From Cytophagaceae bacterium (lineage in GTDB: Bacteria > Bacteroidota > Bacteroidia > Cytophagales > Cytophagaceae): DNA of 64,000 nt. The notes beneath the pieces were generated by a model. The model ran no database searches. It was not told the DNA's origin and worked only from the letters and a program-made list of their open reading frames with translations. Positions 3,668 to 58,900 of the stretch are shown one piece after another. The position numbers and the translations under genes are program-made. Numbering within the stretch: the first letter of the stretch is position 1; the number at the start of each line of letters is the position of its first letter. Location of the stretch: the NCBI GenBank assembly GCA_025454925.1, contig JALONM010000005.1, positions 62,001-126,000 on the forward strand, given 5' to 3'.

Positions 3668-6600
3668 TTAATCCATCGTGATTTCAAGCGCCAATCCACG
3701 AAGTTCGTGTACCAATACGTTGAACGATTCTGGTACATTTGGCTTCGGCATATTCTCACCTTTCACAATAGCTTCGTAGGTTTTAGCTCTACCTACCACG
3801 TCATCGGATTTCACGGTAAGAATTTCCTGAAGGATGTGCGATGCACCGAATGCCTCGAGTGCCCAAACCTCCATCTCACCGAAACGCTGACCACCAAATT
3901 GAGCCTTACCACCCAATGGTTGCTGAGTAATAAGCGAGTAAGGTCCGATAGAACGGGCGTGCATCTTATCGTCTACTAAGTGGCCCAATTTCAGCATGTA
4001 AATGATACCAACTGTTACTGGCTGATCAAAACGATATCCTGACAATCCATCGTACAAATAAGTACGACCGAAGTATGGAAGTTTCGCTTCGTTCAATTCT
4101 GCTTCTACTTCTTTTTCAGTAGCACCATCAAAGATCGGTGTAGCATATTTGCGGCCTAATTTTCTACCAGCCCAACCCAACACGGTTTCATAAATCTGAC
4201 CCAAGTTCATACGGGAAGGTACCCCAAGTGGGTTAAGCACGATGTCTACGGGAGATCCATCTTCCAGGAACGGCATATCTTCCTCACGCACAATACGGGC
4301 CACAACCCCTTTGTTACCGTGACGACCAGCCATTTTATCCCCTACTTTCAGCTTACGTTTCTTAGCGATGTATACTTTGGCCAACTGCACGATACCTGCG
4401 GGTAATTCATCTCCCACTTCAAGTGTGAAACGCTCTCTTTTGAATCTACCAGCAATCTCGTTACGCTTATGCAGATAGTTTTTAATCAACTTCTGCACCA
4501 GTTCGTTGGCATGCTTGTCGGTAGTCCAGTTGTCTAATGCAATGTCACCAATGAAGTTTGCTTCTTCCGGAACATTGTAATTAGATTCATCTTTGTATTT
4601 GTTGACATCCGGGAACAAATTAGCCTCAATATTTTTGCGGCTAAACTTCACTCCTTTAGCAATAACTTCATCGCCGAATTTGTGCTTCACTCCGTTGCTG
4701 GCCTGACCATCCAAGATGGTCACTAATTTATCCAACACAATGGTTCTGATACTTGTCAAATCCTTACTGTAAGCAGACTTCAACGTTTCCACTTGCTTCT
4801 TGGACTTCGCACGAAGATCCTTGTCCTTTTTAGGACGAGAGAATAATTTGGTATCGATCACCACACCACGAAGCGATGGCGGAGCCTTCATTGAAGCATC
4901 CTTCACATCACCAGCCTTATCCCCGAAGATAGCTCTAAGAAGCTTTTCTTCCGGAGTTGGATCGGTTTCACCTTTTGGAGTGATCTTTCCAATTAAAATA
5001 TCACCTTCTTTAATCTCAGCACCGATGCGAACAATTCCGTTCTCATCCAAATGCTTTACAGCTTCCTCCGATACGTTAGGAATTTCAGAAGTCAATTCTT
5101 CCTCTCCACGTTTGGTATCACGAACTTCCAGTTCAAACTCTTCAATGTGTATGGAAGTGAAGATATCTTCACGAACTACTTTTTCATTGATTACAATCGC
5201 ATCCTCGAAGTTATACCCTTGCCAAGGCATGAATGCCACCAACAGGTTACGGCCCAATGCCAACTCCCCGTTATTGGTTGCATATCCCTCACAAAGAATA
5301 TCACCTTTTTTAACCGGCTGGCCCTTACGAACCATTGGCTTCAGGTTGATACAAGTATCCTGGTTGGTTCTGCGGAATTTCACCAATGGATACGATTTAA
5401 ATTCTGAATCAAAAGAAACCAGCTTTTCGTCGGCCGACATGTCGTATTTCACAACAATTTTCGTAGCATCAACGAAGTCAATGACACCCGTTCCTTCCGC
5501 TACTACCAGTGCACGGGAATCTTGAGCAACACGCTTCTCCAAACCAGTACCAACAATTGGAGCTTCCGGACGAAGCAATGGCACGGCCTGACGTTGCATG
5601 TTAGATCCCATCAAAGCGCGGTTTGCATCATCGTGTTCCAAGAAAGGAATCAGGGACGCAGCTACCGACACAATCTGATTCGGAGCAATATCAATATAGG
5701 TTACTTTTTCGGGTTCCAACACAGGGAAGTCACCTTCGTAACGCGCTTTTACTTTATCAGCATTAAAGCTTCCGGTCTCGTCAATACCAATATTGGTCTG
5801 AGCGATGTTATGACCATCTTCTTCTTCCGCCGTAAGATACACAGGAGACTTCTTCAAATTCACTTTCCCGTCTTCAACAATGCGGTAAGGTGTTTCGATG
5901 AAGCCCATATGATTCACCTTGGCATGAACGCAAAGTGAAGAAATCAAACCGATGTTTGGACCTTCTGGTGTTTCAATAGTACAAAGACGACCGTAGTGCG
6001 TATAGTGAACGTCACGTACCTCGAAACCAGCTCTTTCGCGGGAAAGACCGCCTGGCCCAAGGGCCGACATACGACGCTTGTGCGTAATCTCAGCCAGTGG
6101 ATTCGTTTGGTCCATGAACTGGGAAAGCTGGTTGGTACCAAAGAACGAGTTGATCACGGAAGACAAGGTACGCGCATTGATCAAATCAACAGGCTTGAAG
6201 TCTTCGTTATCACGAACGTTCATTCTTTCCTTTATGGTTCTGGCCATACGGGCAAGACCCACAGCGAATTGACCATATAACTGCTCCCCTACCGTACGAA
6301 CGCGGCGGTTACTCAAGTGGTCAATATCATCTACAATTGCCTTGGAGTTAATCAAACCGATCAGGTACTTCACGATAGACAAAATATCATCTTTGGTAAG
6401 TACACGAATATCGGAAGAGACCTCTAGACCCAGTTTTTTATTAATTCTATAACGGCCTACTTCACCCAAATCATAACGTTTGTCTGAGAAGAACAAGTTA
6501 TGGATGATGTCACGTGCTGTTTGTTCATCGGGAGCGTCGGAGTTACGAAGCTGACGATAGATTTGCTCTACCGCTTCTTTCTCTGAGTTGGAAGGATCCT

Positions 6601-26634: not shown

Positions 26635-26709
26635 TTAAAATAGCCGGATTAGCCTTGATTATAGCTCCCTTTACGCGAGAAATTCAGTTTTTCAGTTCGA
26701 CCATTTTTC

Positions 26710-26830
26710 GCGTGAGGGATAGAGCGTAAAGCCCGCAGTGGTGGCGTTCATAGCGCCACCACGAGGACTTGCAGCGATAGCCCGACCCAAGTGCCGTGGC
26801 GCCTTTGGCGCCACCACGCAGGGGCACGCC
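26710..26830 (-). repeat. GC-rich dispersed element A, copy 1
   Basis: Conserved blocks on the minus strand: GGCGTGCCCC, GGGTCGGGCTATCGCTGCAAG and GGGCTTTACGCTCTATCCC, ending TCACGC. Between them lie two hairpin slots, GTGGCGCC-AAA-GGCGCCAC and GTGGTGGCG...CGCCACCAC. Each slot contains a 17-mer of 7-3-7 symmetry (26797-26813 and 26742-26758). Confidence 0.8.
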
Positions 26831-26933
26831 ATAATGGAAGTCTTGAATTTGAGTATGAAGGGAGAAAAATCAGGATTTAAAAGTGGTAGCCGAACTTATA
26901 GGAATCAATTTGCAAGAGTGGTAATAAAAAATA

Positions 26934-27800: not shown

Positions 27801-30518
27801 TTATTTATTTCCTTGAAATTTAAAACCGATGGAACCTGATTGTGTGGCGCCTTCTTCCATTTTAAAGTCTTTAAGATCTTCAACGGTAAGCCTGGCAAGA
27901 ACGTCTTGCGTGCGATCGCTGGCCGCCAGTGAAGCCATGCGCAGGTGTTGTTCTTTGATGGCTTCTTTGATTACTTTGCGTACCGAACGGGCATTGCCAA
28001 AAAACTTATCGCGCTTGCTATGCAAATGATTGAGGTAAGTTTTGAGGTGCTCTGCGGCTTCAGCGTCGGGCGACAAGCCTTCCTGGCTCAACATCACCAG
28101 AGCGATGGTGTACAACTCTTCTGCTGAATAATCAGCAAAATCGAGTGTACGATCAAACCTGGATTTTAAACCTGGATTCATCTCCAGAAATTTAAACATA
28201 TTGTCGGTGTAGCCGGCCACAATAACAACAAACTTACCGCGACGGTCTTCCATTTGCTTAAGCAAGGTTTCGATGGCTTCGCGGCCGAAATCGTTTTCTC
28301 CCCCTTGTGAAAGCGCGTAGGCTTCGTCGATAAACAACACACCGCCTTCGGCGCGGTCAATAGCTTCCTGCGTTTTAATAGCCGTTTGTCCAATAAATCC
28401 GGCTACCAATCCCTGACGGTCGATTTCGACCATATGGCCACGTTCCAGTATGCCCAGGGCTTTGTAAATTTTAGCCACAATGCGTGCCACAGTGGTTTTT
28501 CCAGTTCCAGGATTGCCTGAGAACACGGTATGTAGAGAAAATTTACCCAACACATCTTTCCCTGTTTCTCGGTAAAAACGAACGAGCTTTACCATTTCCT
28601 GAAGCTCTTCTTTTACCTCCTGCATGCCTGTAAGCTTGTTCAACTCGCCCAGGGACTCTGCCAGTAAGGCTTCGTCGAGTTTGATATCGGGAAGGCCTTT
28701 ATTCGTGGTCTTGAACAAAGACTTCACATCATCAAGTTGAATGGTTTTTAAATCGTCGGCCGATAATTTGGAAGGGTCTGCGCTTCGCATCAAGCGAAGT
28801 CCCATATTCATTTTAGATTCATCGATCCAAGAGGTTACCAGGCGGGCATTTCCGAAGGTAGCATTCCGGTTACGATAGGCCTCAATGAGATTATCGTAAA
28901 GGAGTGTTTCCGCTTCTGGCGACAAAGCCACATTGCGCTTGCCCGCGGTGAAGCGTGCTATGTCCATCAATTCCTGTGGAAGGTAATCATCAAAATGGAA
29001 AAATAAATTAAAGCGAGAACGCAATCCTGGGTTGGAACTCAGGAAGTGATTCATCTCTTTGGGGTATCCGGCCACAATGATGGCCAGGTCGCCCTTTCCA
29101 TCCGACATTTCCTTTAATAGAATTTCCACCACTTCTTGTCCGAAATCGTTGGAACTATCGCCTTCGCGCATCAGGGAGTAAGCCTCGTCAATAAACAAAA
29201 CACCTCCACGTGCTTTTTCGATAATCTCTTTTACCTGTGGAGCTGTTTGACCGATGAATTTCCCTACAAGTTCTGCTCTTCCAACTTCTGTTACCTTGCC
29301 TTTCGAGAGCAGTCCCATTTTGTGATAGATCTGGCCGATCATTTTGGCCACGGTCGTTTTTCCGGTGCCTGGATTTCCGGTAAACACAGAATGGAGCGAA
29401 AACTTTCCTCCCTCATCAAACCCTTGCTCCTGGCGGAGTTTCAGGAACTTGAGATACGAAATATAATCGTTGACTTTGGTTTTAACAGAAGTTAAGCCTA
29501 TCATTTCATTGAGGCTCTTCATCACATCTTCCAGCGACTCTTCCTGCATTTCTTTATTGGCGCCTTTGGCGCCATAGGTCATCTCCGAAGTTTTCAGCAA
29601 GCTTACGTCGCCTTCTACAAATTCATCGCCCACCTCAAACGGAACCACCGCAATAAGTTGATCCATGAAAGTAATTTCGAGCCGGTACTTATCATGGTAC
29701 CAGGTGCCTTTGGTGCTGCTGCCCCAACCCGATAAAATGGTTACATTCTTTTCGGTACCTCCTATGTATTTCAATTCAGAAGCGCTGCCTTTGAGTTGAC
29801 CTGAATCGTTGTAATAGTTAAAAAACAACTCACAATACCAGGACTGCGACTGCAAATTTTCAATATTAACTTCTACCCAGGCATACTCCGTGTCGGTGGC
29901 ACTAAACTTCACCATGTAAGTACGATCGTCTTTGGCTACGCCTTCGTTGGGGCCTTCGTACAGTTTTACCGATTCGAGATTGAAATAAGGATTCTGATCG
30001 GTGAGCATGCCCCCCGATTCAATATAAAAAGCTTGAGTGCCTACTTTCTCATCGCCAATATAGGCCTCCCATTCGTAGTCGCCACGCGACCAGAATGAGC
30101 CCAGTTCTTTATTGCCCCAGCCCTCGCGCACCACCACGATGTTCTGGTCTTTGCCAATTTTTAAATCCTTGGTAATGTTGCAAAGCTCCTCGCGGTTCTC
30201 TTTTTTCAATCGAAAAGCCTTGAGCGAAATTTTAGTATCCCAATCTTCTTCGTCAAACTTTTTATTGTAGAACGAGAGCTCTGCATAGAGATAGGTAGTT
30301 TCTTTATTTTCAAATACACGGCGATAGCGGCGACTATTGCCTGCCATACTTTCCGTTGAAGAAAAAATCTTTAACTCTTTAAATTTGTATTGCTTGTCCA
30401 AGGTAACAGTAAGTTTAATAGTTGTTGTATTGTGTCCCTTTGTACGCTGGTGCACCCTAAAAGTTGAATGAAAAAGCAGGGTGTACCAAAGTAGTTTGCG
30501 TTTACTCCGGATACTCAA
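27801..30518 (-). CDS. Double-AAA ATPase (CbbX/SpoVK-like) with duplicated N-terminal beta domain
   Basis: Protein of up to 905 aa. Two related domains of about 120 residues come first; the shared ends are REGWGNKELGSFW...EAYIGDEKVGTQAFYIE and LSGWGSSTKGTWY...DQLIAVVPFEVG. They are followed by two CbbX/SpoVK-type AAA modules, each with Walker A GNPGTGKTTVA, Walker B GGVLFIDEAY and downstream sensor and Arg-finger regions. Both ATPase sites look intact. The first ~35 residues from the ATG at 30518 do not look family-like. The internal ATG at about 30347 would cut into the first domain, so a TTG near 30390 is another possible start. A 17-bp palindrome sits in frame in the linker before the first AAA module. 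Confidence 0.88.
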   Translation of the reverse strand: MSIRSKRKLLWYTLLFHSTFRVHQRTKGHNTTTIKLTVTLDKQYKFKELKIFSSTESMAGNSRRYRRVFENKETTYLYAELSFYNKKFDEEDWDTKISLKAFRLKKENREELCNITKDLKIGKDQNIVVVREGWGNKELGSFWSRGDYEWEAYIGDEKVGTQAFYIESGGMLTDQNPYFNLESVKLYEGPNEGVAKDDRTYMVKFSATDTEYAWVEVNIENLQSQSWYCELFFNYYNDSGQLKGSASELKYIGGTEKNVTILSGWGSSTKGTWYHDKYRLEITFMDQLIAVVPFEVGDEFVEGDVSLLKTSEMTYGAKGANKEMQEESLEDVMKSLNEMIGLTSVKTKVNDYISYLKFLKLRQEQGFDEGGKFSLHSVFTGNPGTGKTTVAKMIGQIYHKMGLLSKGKVTEVGRAELVGKFIGQTAPQVKEIIEKARGGVLFIDEAYSLMREGDSSNDFGQEVVEILLKEMSDGKGDLAIIVAGYPKEMNHFLSSNPGLRSRFNLFFHFDDYLPQELMDIARFTAGKRNVALSPEAETLLYDNLIEAYRNRNATFGNARLVTSWIDESKMNMGLRLMRSADPSKLSADDLKTIQLDDVKSLFKTTNKGLPDIKLDEALLAESLGELNKLTGMQEVKEELQEMVKLVRFYRETGKDVLGKFSLHTVFSGNPGTGKTTVARIVAKIYKALGILERGHMVEIDRQGLVAGFIGQTAIKTQEAIDRAEGGVLFIDEAYALSQGGENDFGREAIETLLKQMEDRRGKFVVIVAGYTDNMFKFLEMNPGLKSRFDRTLDFADYSAEELYTIALVMLSQEGLSPDAEAAEHLKTYLNHLHSKRDKFFGNARSVRKVIKEAIKEQHLRMASLAASDRTQDVLARLTVEDLKDFKMEEGATQSGSIGFKFQGNK
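29558..29574. repeat. 17-bp palindrome TGGCGCC-TTT-GGCGCCA inside a coding region
   Basis: A perfect 7-3-7 palindrome, identical to the one in element A copy 1. Here it is in frame within the double-AAA ATPase gene and encodes GAKGA in a linker (TYGAKGANKEM). Confidence 0.85.
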
Positions 30519-34312: not shown

Positions 34313-34434
34313 GGGCGTGCCCTTGCGTCGTGGCGCTGAAGGCGCCACGCCACTGCGGGTCGGGCTATCGCTCCAAGTCCTCGTGTGGCGCTTTGAGCGC
34401 CCCCACTGCGGGCTTTCCGCTCTATCCCTCACGC
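34313..34434 (+). repeat. GC-rich dispersed element A, copy 2
   Basis: Same three conserved blocks as copy 1: GGGCGTGCCC, GGGTCGGGCTATCGCTCCAAG and GGGCTTTCCGCTCTATCCC, ending TCACGC. The slots hold TGGCGCT-GAA-GGCGCCA (34331-34347) and TGGCGCT-TTG-AGCGCCC (34386-34402), each 17 nt. Confidence 0.8.
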
Positions 34435-34496
34435 AAGGGAAAAACAAACGTACGATCAACCTCCAAGGTTGCCCATACAGATTGCCGGGCAATTTC

Positions 34497-39012: not shown

Positions 39013-39077
39013 AAAACACTGCGATCGATGTTTTGTGAATGCTCCTAATAGTCGCACAAATTATATGAGCGCGTTAG

Positions 39078-39509
39078 TCGGGGTGACGGGATTTGAACCC
39101 ACGACCTTGGCGCCGCAGGCGACACACGCTACCTCGATACATTTTCCTGGAAAATAAAAAAGCCATTGGCGCCTGAGCGCCACGCCGCAGGCGACACACG
39201 CAAACTCAATACATTTTCCTTGAAAATAAAAAAGCCATTGGCGCCTGAGCGCCACGCCGCAGGCGACACACGCTATCTCGATACATTTTCCTTGAAAATA
39301 AAAAAGCCATCCTAACGGACGGCTAAATTGTCGGGGTGGCGGGATTTGAACCCACGACCTTGGCGCCGCAGGCGCCACACGCTACCTCGATACATTTTCC
39401 TTGAAAATAAAGGATTTGAACCCACGACCTTGGCGCCGCAGGCGCCACACGCTACCTCGATACATTTTCCTTGAAAATAAAAAAGCCATCCTAACGGACG
39501 GCTAAATTG
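39078..39509 (-). repeat. Tandem degenerate tRNA-Pro/terminator array
   Basis: Five units of about 70-100 bp lie downstream of tRNA-Pro in its transcription direction. Three contain the 3' part of tRNA-Pro: 39331-39360 is an exact 30-bp match including the discriminator, 39078-39107 differs by one base, and 39412-39430 is shorter (19 bp). In each, the anticodon arm is replaced by TGGCGCC-TGC-GGCGCCA (39361-39377, 39431-39447, and a mutated 39108-39124). The D-arm end GGTAGCGTG is kept on the far side. Units also share ATACATTTTCCTTGAAAATA and, twice, the tRNA terminator. These cannot form functional tRNAs. Confidence 0.85.
39478..39503 (-). terminator. Terminator of tRNA-Pro
   Basis: On the minus strand AGCCGTCC-GTTA-GGATGGCT forms an 8-bp stem with one G-U pair, followed by TTTTTT. 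It begins 7 bp after the tRNA-Pro 3' end. A second copy lies at about 39298-39324 inside the array. Confidence 0.75.
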
Positions 39510-39583
39510 TCGGGGTGGCGGGATTTGAACCCACGACCTCTTGCACCCCATACAAGCACGCTACCAGGCTGCGCTACACCCCG
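39510..39583 (-). tRNA. tRNA-Pro (anticodon GGG)
   Basis: A 74-nt cloverleaf on the minus strand. Acceptor stem CGGGGTG/CACCCCG with an A discriminator, anticodon arm CTTGT-ATGGGGT-GCAAG, T-loop TTCAAAT. CCA is not encoded. It is the intact parent of the partial copies downstream. Confidence 0.96.
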
Positions 39584-48727: not shown

Positions 48728-48850
48728 AATCGCGACCTGAAAAATCGGGAAATTAAAAATGAATTTCTTCTGAAGCACTTGATTGTATGAGTGATTTTTC
48801 CATAAAAAAAATTCTATGAAAAAATCCCATTTAAAAACATGGCTAGTTTT

Positions 48851-48965
48851 GCGTGAGGGATAGAGTGTAAAGCCATGGCGCCATAGGCGCCATGCTTGCA
48901 GCGATAGCCCGGCCCAACGTGGTGAGGTGGGCTTGTAGCGCCACCTCACCACAAGGGACACGCCC
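48851..48965 (-). repeat. GC-rich dispersed element A, copy 3
   Basis: Conserved blocks GGGCGTGTCCC, GGGCCGGGCTATCGCTGCAAG and GGCTTTACACTCTATCCC, ending TCACGC on the minus strand. One slot holds TGGCGCC-TAT-GGCGCCA (48876-48892). The other carries a longer stem, GTGGTGAGGTGG...CCACCTCACCAC, unlike any other copy. Confidence 0.8.
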
Positions 48966-49187
48966 AACATACAATCTTAAAGTTAAATACTAAAAAAGGC
49001 TACGTAATGATTGGAGATTTAACTGCATCACCAAATGCAATCTATTTTTTGAAAAAATAAGGTTAAACTTTTCAAATGCTTACCAAGCCCTTGCATGAGG
49101 CGAACCGGCATGATTTCTTTTGGAAAATTATTTTAATTGGAAAAAATTATTCGCACCTTACCATTGAAAACAAAAAAAGTATTCCTT

Positions 49188-58613: not shown

Positions 58614-58739
58614 GGGCGTGTCCCTGCGTGGCGCCTTCAGCGCCACTGTGGGCCGGGCCATCGCTGCAAGCCTGTGTGGTGTCGATGGCGCCTAATGCGC
58701 CACGCCACCACACAGGGCTTTCCACTCTGTCCCTCACGC
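58614..58739 (+). repeat. GC-rich dispersed element A, copy 4
   Basis: Conserved blocks GGGCGTGTCCC, GGGCCGGGCCATCGCTGCAAG and GGGCTTTCCACTCTGTCCC, ending TCACGC. Slots: TGGCGCC-TTC-AGCGCCA (58629-58645) and a long stem GTGTGGTG...CACCACAC enclosing TGGCGCC-TAA-TGCGCCA (58686-58702). Confidence 0.8.
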
Positions 58740-58900
58740 AAAACACAGTACAACATTTTAAGCTGATTTTTTTCTCCTTTGAACCCTAATTTTTCAATAG
58801 AAATTCTTCTATTGAAAAACGACTACTAAAATCAAGGGCTTTAGATGGAATCGAATAGAAGAAATTCTTTTCTGAGCCCATGATTTTCTAAGTCGCAATT

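Follow-up and report, generated by a model that had tools for sequence, protein, structure and literature searches.

The window, a stretch of 64,000 nucleotides that forms part of contig C123 of a draft Cytophagaceae genome (4.52 Mb, 135 contigs), contains five tandem pseudo-tRNA units 3' of an intact tRNA-Pro(GGG) gene, on the minus strand. This array probably represents (at a probability of about 0.7) a decayed, ORF-less and tandemly amplified derivative of a small mobile element of about 0.3 kb that parasitises tRNA genes and encodes a GIY-YIG nuclease. Complete elements contain a GIY-YIG catalytic domain with conserved Tyr, Arg and Glu, whereas the window array contains no ORF of this kind, which its units would have lost. 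The nuclease gene is present in many relatives and lies 3' of two other tRNAs of the same genome. Since no GIY-YIG remnant longer than a start-like leader was found in the window, the descent of its units rests on shared architecture.

The architecture of the array is summarised in the table. Tandem partial copies behind the intact tRNA had been described in an earlier note on this DNA, and the sequence relations that it drew are correct. Each unit opens with a leader, AAGGAAAATGTAT in four units and CAGGAAAATGTAT in unit 5, which is repeated at 39390, 39281 and 39209 and, with one change, at 39137, and which runs straight into a D-arm remnant. The remnant is GAGGTAGCGTG in units 1, 2 and 5, and GATAGCGTG and GTTTGCGTG in units 3 and 4. 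The 17-for-17 exchange of the anticodon arm for a palindrome, the central claim of the earlier note, is real and exact in units 1 and 2, which alone contain TGGCGCC-TGC-GGCGCCA. It does not extend to the rest of the array: the palindrome of unit 5 has one mismatch (TGTCGCC..., 39108-39124), and units 3 and 4 are rearranged, with a second palindrome, TGGCGCTCAGGCGCCA (39239-39254 and 39167-39182), supplanting the T-arm and most of the terminator. Units 2 and 5 retain T-arm and acceptor strand in full, unit 1 in truncated form; the terminator is present in two full copies, and its tail alone two further times. On the element model, the T-arm and acceptor strand of unit 5 would be the displaced original 3' part of the tRNA.

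Table. Features of the tRNA-Pro(GGG) array and copies of the dispersed element in the window
Feature	Position	Strand	Basis
Intact tRNA-Pro(GGG)	39509-39583	(-)	ARAGORN; Rfam RF00005, 58.7 bits
Intrinsic terminator of the tRNA, first full copy	39473-39505	(-)	sequence
Unit 1 leader AAGGAAAATGTAT	39460-39473	(-)	sequence
Unit 1 D-arm remnant GAGGTAGCGTG	39448-39458	(-)	sequence
Unit 1 palindrome TGGCGCCTGCGGCGCCA, at the anticodon-arm position	39431-39447	(-)	sequence
Unit 1 T-arm, truncated, fused directly to the next unit	39412-39430	(-)	sequence
Unit 2 D-arm remnant	39378-39388	(-)	sequence
Unit 2 palindrome TGGCGCCTGCGGCGCCA	39361-39377	(-)	sequence
Unit 2 T-arm with acceptor 3' strand, 31/31 identical to the tRNA	39330-39360	(-)	sequence
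Terminator, second full copy	39294-39326	(-)	sequence
Unit 3 D-arm remnant, followed by decayed palindrome TGTCGCCTGCGGCG and, at the T-arm position, second palindrome TGGCGCTCAGGCGCCA	39239-39279	(-)	
Unit 4, layout as unit 3	39167-39207	(-)	sequence
Unit 5 D-arm remnant, then palindrome TGTCGCCTGCGGCGCCA with one mismatch	39108-39135	(-)	sequence
Unit 5 T-arm and acceptor strand, adjoining the unique flank (30/31 identical)	39077-39107	(-)	
Dispersed element, four copies	26709-26850, 34313-34440, 48850-48980, 58614-58740		

When scored as tRNA, the best unit reaches 26.2 bits and the next 21.7, against a cut-off of 29; thus, the units fail as tRNA. Their leader appears to resemble the ORF start of complete elements (ATG-TAY). 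A closed mini-ORF 'MYRG*' in ATGTATCGAGGTAG was considered for the window units and ruled out, the TAG being out of frame. With up to three mismatches, GGCGCCTGCGGCGCC occurs 17 times in the window compared with 0.6 expected, and this excess, together with independent recurrence of the chimera at tRNA-Asp and in other genomes, places the swap far above chance.

Further units occur in the same genome. Behind the tRNA-Asp gene (contig C70) come a terminator, a degenerate D-arm, TGGCGCCATCAGCGCCA and a T-arm, i.e., a unit of the same kind; this array covers positions 5362-5656 of locus L055 (C70) and 1-100 of L056 (C127), the contig ending within it and C127 beginning with it. A GIY-YIG ORF lies directly 3' of tRNA-Val (L057, 1162-1575; C59) and is broken near codon 70 by another dispersed repeat, which is also found 3' of tRNA-Ala (L079). 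Behind tRNA-Pro(TGG), the start of a GIY-YIG ORF (MFFTYILYSSTLGKFYIGHTADLHN...) is located at a contig end. The copy 3' of tRNA-Arg(ACG) (L067, 1404-1574; C123, outside the window) was rejected as a palindrome unit: it is a decayed tandem duplicate with its own terminator that lacks a 17-nt D-arm region and has no palindrome. One weak tRNA match of the genome proved to be a YrlA-like (Y RNA-like) RNA (L252, 232-356; C127; 41.2 bits, E = 4.6e-7, below the gathering score of 69), and a tRNA-like but incomplete sequence whose anticodon region is of the Cys type (CTGCAAAAC; L251, 324-385; C36; 35.7 bits) is possibly a degenerate tRNA-Cys.

The palindrome is also abundant away from tRNA genes. TGGCGCC-N3-GGCGCCA occurs 61 times in the genome, against 0 for the reversed control, and TGGCGC-N3-5-GCGCCA 169 times. 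Most of the TGGCGCC palindromes belong to hairpins in a dispersed element, roughly 100-150 nt long, with the layout GCGTGAGGGATAGAGYGTAAAGCC-hairpin-GGCTTGCAGCGATAGCCCGGCCC-hairpin-GGGACACGCCC, of which the genome holds dozens of copies. The tips of its hairpins are formed by TGGCGCC palindromes of the type seen in the tRNA units, and it weakly matches Flavo-1 RNA (RF01705; 23.9 bits, E = 0.0038), below the gathering score of 42 for that family. Unlike the units, however, the dispersed elements contain no tRNA parts, and the window tRNA units gave no Flavo-1 match against Rfam. Outside the Flavo-1-like elements, TGGCGCCTTTGGCGCCA is found at 29558-29574 of the window; it is apparently coding (YGAKGAN, minus strand) and perhaps due to chance.

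A scan of a 257-Gb GTDB collection (84,980 genomes) for a chimera of palindrome and T-arm, TGGCGC-N5-GCGCCA-NGGTC-NNN-GGTTCRA, matched 26 contigs, whereas about 0.02 matches would be expected by chance according to our own estimate. The hosts belong to Bacteroidota (Cytophagales, Saprospiraceae, Cyclobacteriaceae), Ignavibacteria, Kryptoniota, Chlorobiaceae, Anaerolineales and other Chloroflexi, and TA06; one is a Helicobacteraceae MAG, whose match (L109) is most likely a genuine tRNA-Ala(GGC) with an anticodon arm that happens to fit the pattern. Nearly all of the 26 chimeras adjoin a genuine tRNA, with Pro, Ala, Thr and Val among the isotypes, and chimera and neighboring tRNA have similar T-arms. 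The substitution of a palindrome for a tRNA stem-loop, first noticed at the window array, is thus recurrent across many genomes. The IMG/VR viral contigs contained no match to the pattern. In the one stretch of genome G098 that was read, the palindromes lie in a direct-repeat region without tRNA.

Between the intact and broken tRNA copies, a small GIY-YIG ORF of ~83 aa is often present, as in loci of Chloroflexi (L112), Chlorobiaceae (L108), and Bacteroidota (L105, L111, L102, and L114). These ORFs match Pfam PF01541 with E values of 5e-18 to 8e-14, and at several loci the stop codon is located within the D-arm remnant of the unit. Residues Y5, Y16, R26, and E62 are invariant across seven nuclease sequences. 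The closest solved structures by sequence are those of the single-domain UPF0213 proteins 1zg2 (E = 3e-10) and 1ywl (3e-9), followed by Slx1 (1.5e-4). Using a profile of seven proteins (A1, E ≤ 1e-12), a homologue was detected in 155 of 395 sampled Bacteroidota genomes, and 90 loci of close Bacteroidota homologues were read. A tRNA gene lies within 200 nt of the ORF in 80 of them, against an expectation below 1% (our own estimate, from a tRNA density of about 45 per 4 Mb); these figures describe the profiled clade rather than all GIY-YIG proteins, since the seven profile proteins are all tRNA-adjacent and bias the profile accordingly. The tRNA is always on the same strand as the ORF (opposite strand, 0), upstream in 51 loci and downstream in 29. 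Two orders are found: the 3'-type consists of intact tRNA, ORF, and broken copy, the unit lacking the acceptor 5' strand, and the 5'-type of broken copy, ORF, and intact tRNA (e.g., L127, L129, and L133). The broken copy has lost an arm that the intact neighbor retains.

The nuclease phylogeny tracks tRNA isotype, not host. In a tree of the 90 sequences, the isotype changes 21 times, compared with a mean of 53.7 and a minimum of 48 in 200 shuffles, while the host genus changes 71 times (shuffle mean 78.5, minimum 74). The tree is built on 81 columns only and many of its forks are open, but the Asn and Gly clades and one Ser group have support of 97-99. In the multi-element genomes G438, G336, and G411, the elements fall into different isotype clades.

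The replaced site likewise varies by isotype. The anticodon arm is replaced in most Pro loci and also in Ala, Val, and Ile, positions 25-34 and about 50-57 in Gly, positions 23-36 and 57-61 in Asn, and the D-loop in Met and part of Ser. For Asp, the 8-nt T-loop CGAGTTCG is replaced in all loci with both flanks. At this site, seven loci carry six different main palindromes (TCCCGACTAGTCGGGA, TCCCGAGGATCGGGA, TCCCGAATAAAATTCGGGA, TCCCGATCCGTAGGATCGGGA, TCCCGACCGAAGGTCGGGA, and TCCCGCCAAAGGCGGGA), all perfectly paired; because their interiors differ and yet all of them pair, the pairing appears to be under selection. Across the survey, a perfect palindrome (stem of at least 6, loop of 2-8) abuts tRNA-derived sequence in 64 of the 90 loci, the remaining 26 having no palindrome of this definition. 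Among 100 distinct locus-palindrome pairs, 68 start with T and end with A, and a minority of those listed are noise, being terminators or genuine anticodon arms (e.g., the Cys call in L123). In anticodon arms a stretch of 17 nt, and in T-loops one of about 8 nt, gives way to a palindrome of about 15-17 nt. A length-exact exchange, which had been read as a clue to the mechanism, holds for units 1 and 2 of the window and is no rule, as 7 of 35 distinct cases are exact.

The elements are sporadic in their presence and frequently tandem. At the trxB-tRNA-Pro(TGG) locus of one genus, the ORF is present in 4 of the 30 fetched loci and absent from 26. The four comprise the query, one locus cut by a contig end, one with four tandem copies, and one with a single copy, and one ORF-less locus retains a decayed remnant, ATCGCATCCCCTTAGGACGGGAAG. 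The G211 locus has its closest relative in G644 (L222, 1279-1461), where the tRNA-Pro(TGG) segment is element-free and inverted between conserved flanks. No clean empty site was found for the G091 locus, whose flank relatives had lost or moved the tRNA. Tandem arrays are common: G091 has four near-identical complete units and G438 has five. Where only a single copy is present, the homology of the two tRNA parts often extends no further than the tRNA end, which rules out a target-site duplication always including the tRNA terminator; arrays do include it, and high terminator-homology scores stem largely from them.

The complete element combines the ~83-aa GIY-YIG gene with a tRNA mimic made up of a D-arm remnant, a perfect palindrome, a T-arm, and an acceptor strand. 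In the mechanism proposed here, the nuclease would cut or nick the tRNA gene of its own isotype at an isotype-specific arm, and recombination via the tRNA-homologous parts would add the element. This addition may be a single, Campbell-like crossover with an element carrying the junction of D-arm remnant, palindrome, and T-arm: exchange on the T-arm side would yield the 3'-type and exchange on the D-arm side the 5'-type, one intact tRNA being left either way. In the broken copy, the palindrome would take the place of the cut site and thereby protect it. Recognition of the tRNA gene by the nuclease, and a palindrome that marks the destroyed cut site, are suggested by the isotype-specific clades. 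Together with the isotype-specific replaced site, these clades also lend indirect support to the idea that the enzyme cuts alleles lacking the element. Two difficulties arise. Since the intact tRNA keeps its arm, the carrier's own chromosome would remain a substrate for a classical homing enzyme; yet this lasting target may itself drive amplification, as further cutting and recombination at the persisting tRNA could multiply the unit in tandem. Furthermore, a single ~83-aa GIY-YIG domain without a DNA-binding domain would need help to achieve site specificity. Alternatively, the nuclease may act on the palindrome itself, its solved relatives including the structure-specific Slx1.

Other explanations of the array were weighed against this one. 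The units might act as RNA and be retained by the host, serving as decoys or tRNA-like 3' structures, which would make them comparable to the rtT repeats in the E. coli tyrT operon. Unit 2 indeed folds with a palindrome arm and a T-arm, the units adjoin tRNA genes and share their orientation, and pairing is maintained while the palindrome sequences vary. Nevertheless, such a role is unlikely, given that the units of the Pro(GGG) array sit behind terminators, that 3'-type units are missing the acceptor 5' strand, that presence is sporadic within one genus, and that the linked nuclease genes are isotype-specific.

Slightly less likely still is the driver suggested in the earlier note, namely that the anticodon arm of a tRNA duplicate was exchanged by a free mobile palindrome or through templated hairpin repair. 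One palindrome type does occur in two unrelated kinds of stem-loop in the window's genome, most of the 169 copies residing in Flavo-1-like hairpins. In G091, however, a relative with a comparable array, four of the five TGGCGC palindromes of the whole genome lie within the tRNA array, so that the palindrome there is part of the element and not a dispersed repeat. Similarly, TGGCGCCTGCGGCGCCA is found at a tRNA-Pro of G230, although that genome has only 9 TGGCGC palindromes in total. A free palindrome also fits poorly with a type and position that follow tRNA isotype and nuclease clade, and with a sequence that changes while its pairing is kept. As the sole explanation, it is ruled out by the isotype-bound position and the counts in G091 and G230.

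Attachment-site duplication by a tyrosine or serine integrase acting at the tRNA 3' part is very improbable. The resemblance pointed out in the earlier note is sound, as the unit is a displaced tRNA 3' part beside the unique flank and the element, like integrative elements, restores the tRNA. At the loci whose genes were inspected, however, the only gene recurring between the copies is the GIY-YIG gene, the elements measure about 0.3 kb, and integrase attachment sites are not known to exchange an anticodon arm for a conserved palindrome. That note was also right that no integrase is present; the relevant gene is the nuclease, itself absent from the window array. An assembly artefact is the least credible alternative, for although contigs of this genome break at the sibling arrays of tRNA-Asp and tRNA-Pro(TGG), the five window units differ from one another, their array has unique flanks within a contig of 145 kb, and one-contig genomes (e.g., G438 and G336) show the same architecture.

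The tRNA-parasitising GIY-YIG element thus remains the preferred reading, and it can be compared with known systems. Integrative elements and tycheposons with tRNA attachment sites restore the tRNA, a partial copy of which is left at their far end. The present element differs from them in its size, in the palindrome that stands for the anticodon arm, and in that no site-specific recombinase was seen at the inspected loci. The rtT repeats are tandem units 3' of a tRNA, each holding a piece of its 3' end; to our knowledge, they involve neither a nuclease gene nor the replacement of an arm by a palindrome. For UPF0213 proteins, no report of a link to tRNA genes or palindromes was found in the open-access literature. 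SegB of T-even phages, a precedent for the proposed mechanism, is a free-standing GIY-YIG homing endonuclease encoded near tRNA genes, reportedly without preference for particular isotypes; its breaks were mapped within tRNA genes, with the motif RAWTSGAAC, and tandem amplification of tRNA and nuclease gene proceeds via microhomology between the tRNA and the segB end (PMC13096335). The motif reads like the complement of the T-loop. A GIY-YIG gene beside tRNA genes is common to both systems. In contrast to SegB, the present genes lie on bacterial chromosomes, encode predicted nucleases of ~83 aa, are isotype-specific by clade, overlap or abut a tRNA fragment, and are accompanied by a palindrome-armed pseudo-tRNA.

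The open-access literature yielded no report of chromosomal GIY-YIG elements that lie at tRNA genes and carry palindrome-armed pseudo-tRNAs, subscription literature lying outside the search, and a widespread selfish element of tRNA genes has apparently gone undescribed so far. It may be a variant of the free-standing GIY-YIG homing elements or, possibly, a separate class of integrating element. We give even odds to the broader proposal of a new class of minimal integrating element, in which an ~83-aa GIY-YIG nuclease and a palindrome-armed tRNA mimic serving as attachment site would form isotype-specific lineages across several bacterial phyla and give rise to ORF-less tandem derivatives such as that in the window.

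Transfer RNA genes are classic landing sites of large integrative elements. The present findings point to a far smaller parasite of tRNA genes, which is about 0.3 kb long, carries one nuclease domain, is specialised for isotype, and leaves the tRNA intact. If this is true, it would account for many pseudo-tRNAs and small GIY-YIG ORFs found next to tRNAs in bacteria, as well as for some assembly breaks at these places. It would also constitute a chromosomal counterpart to the tRNA amplification driven by SegB, and would provide natural pairs of intact and palindrome-substituted targets for studying how a lone GIY-YIG domain finds its site.
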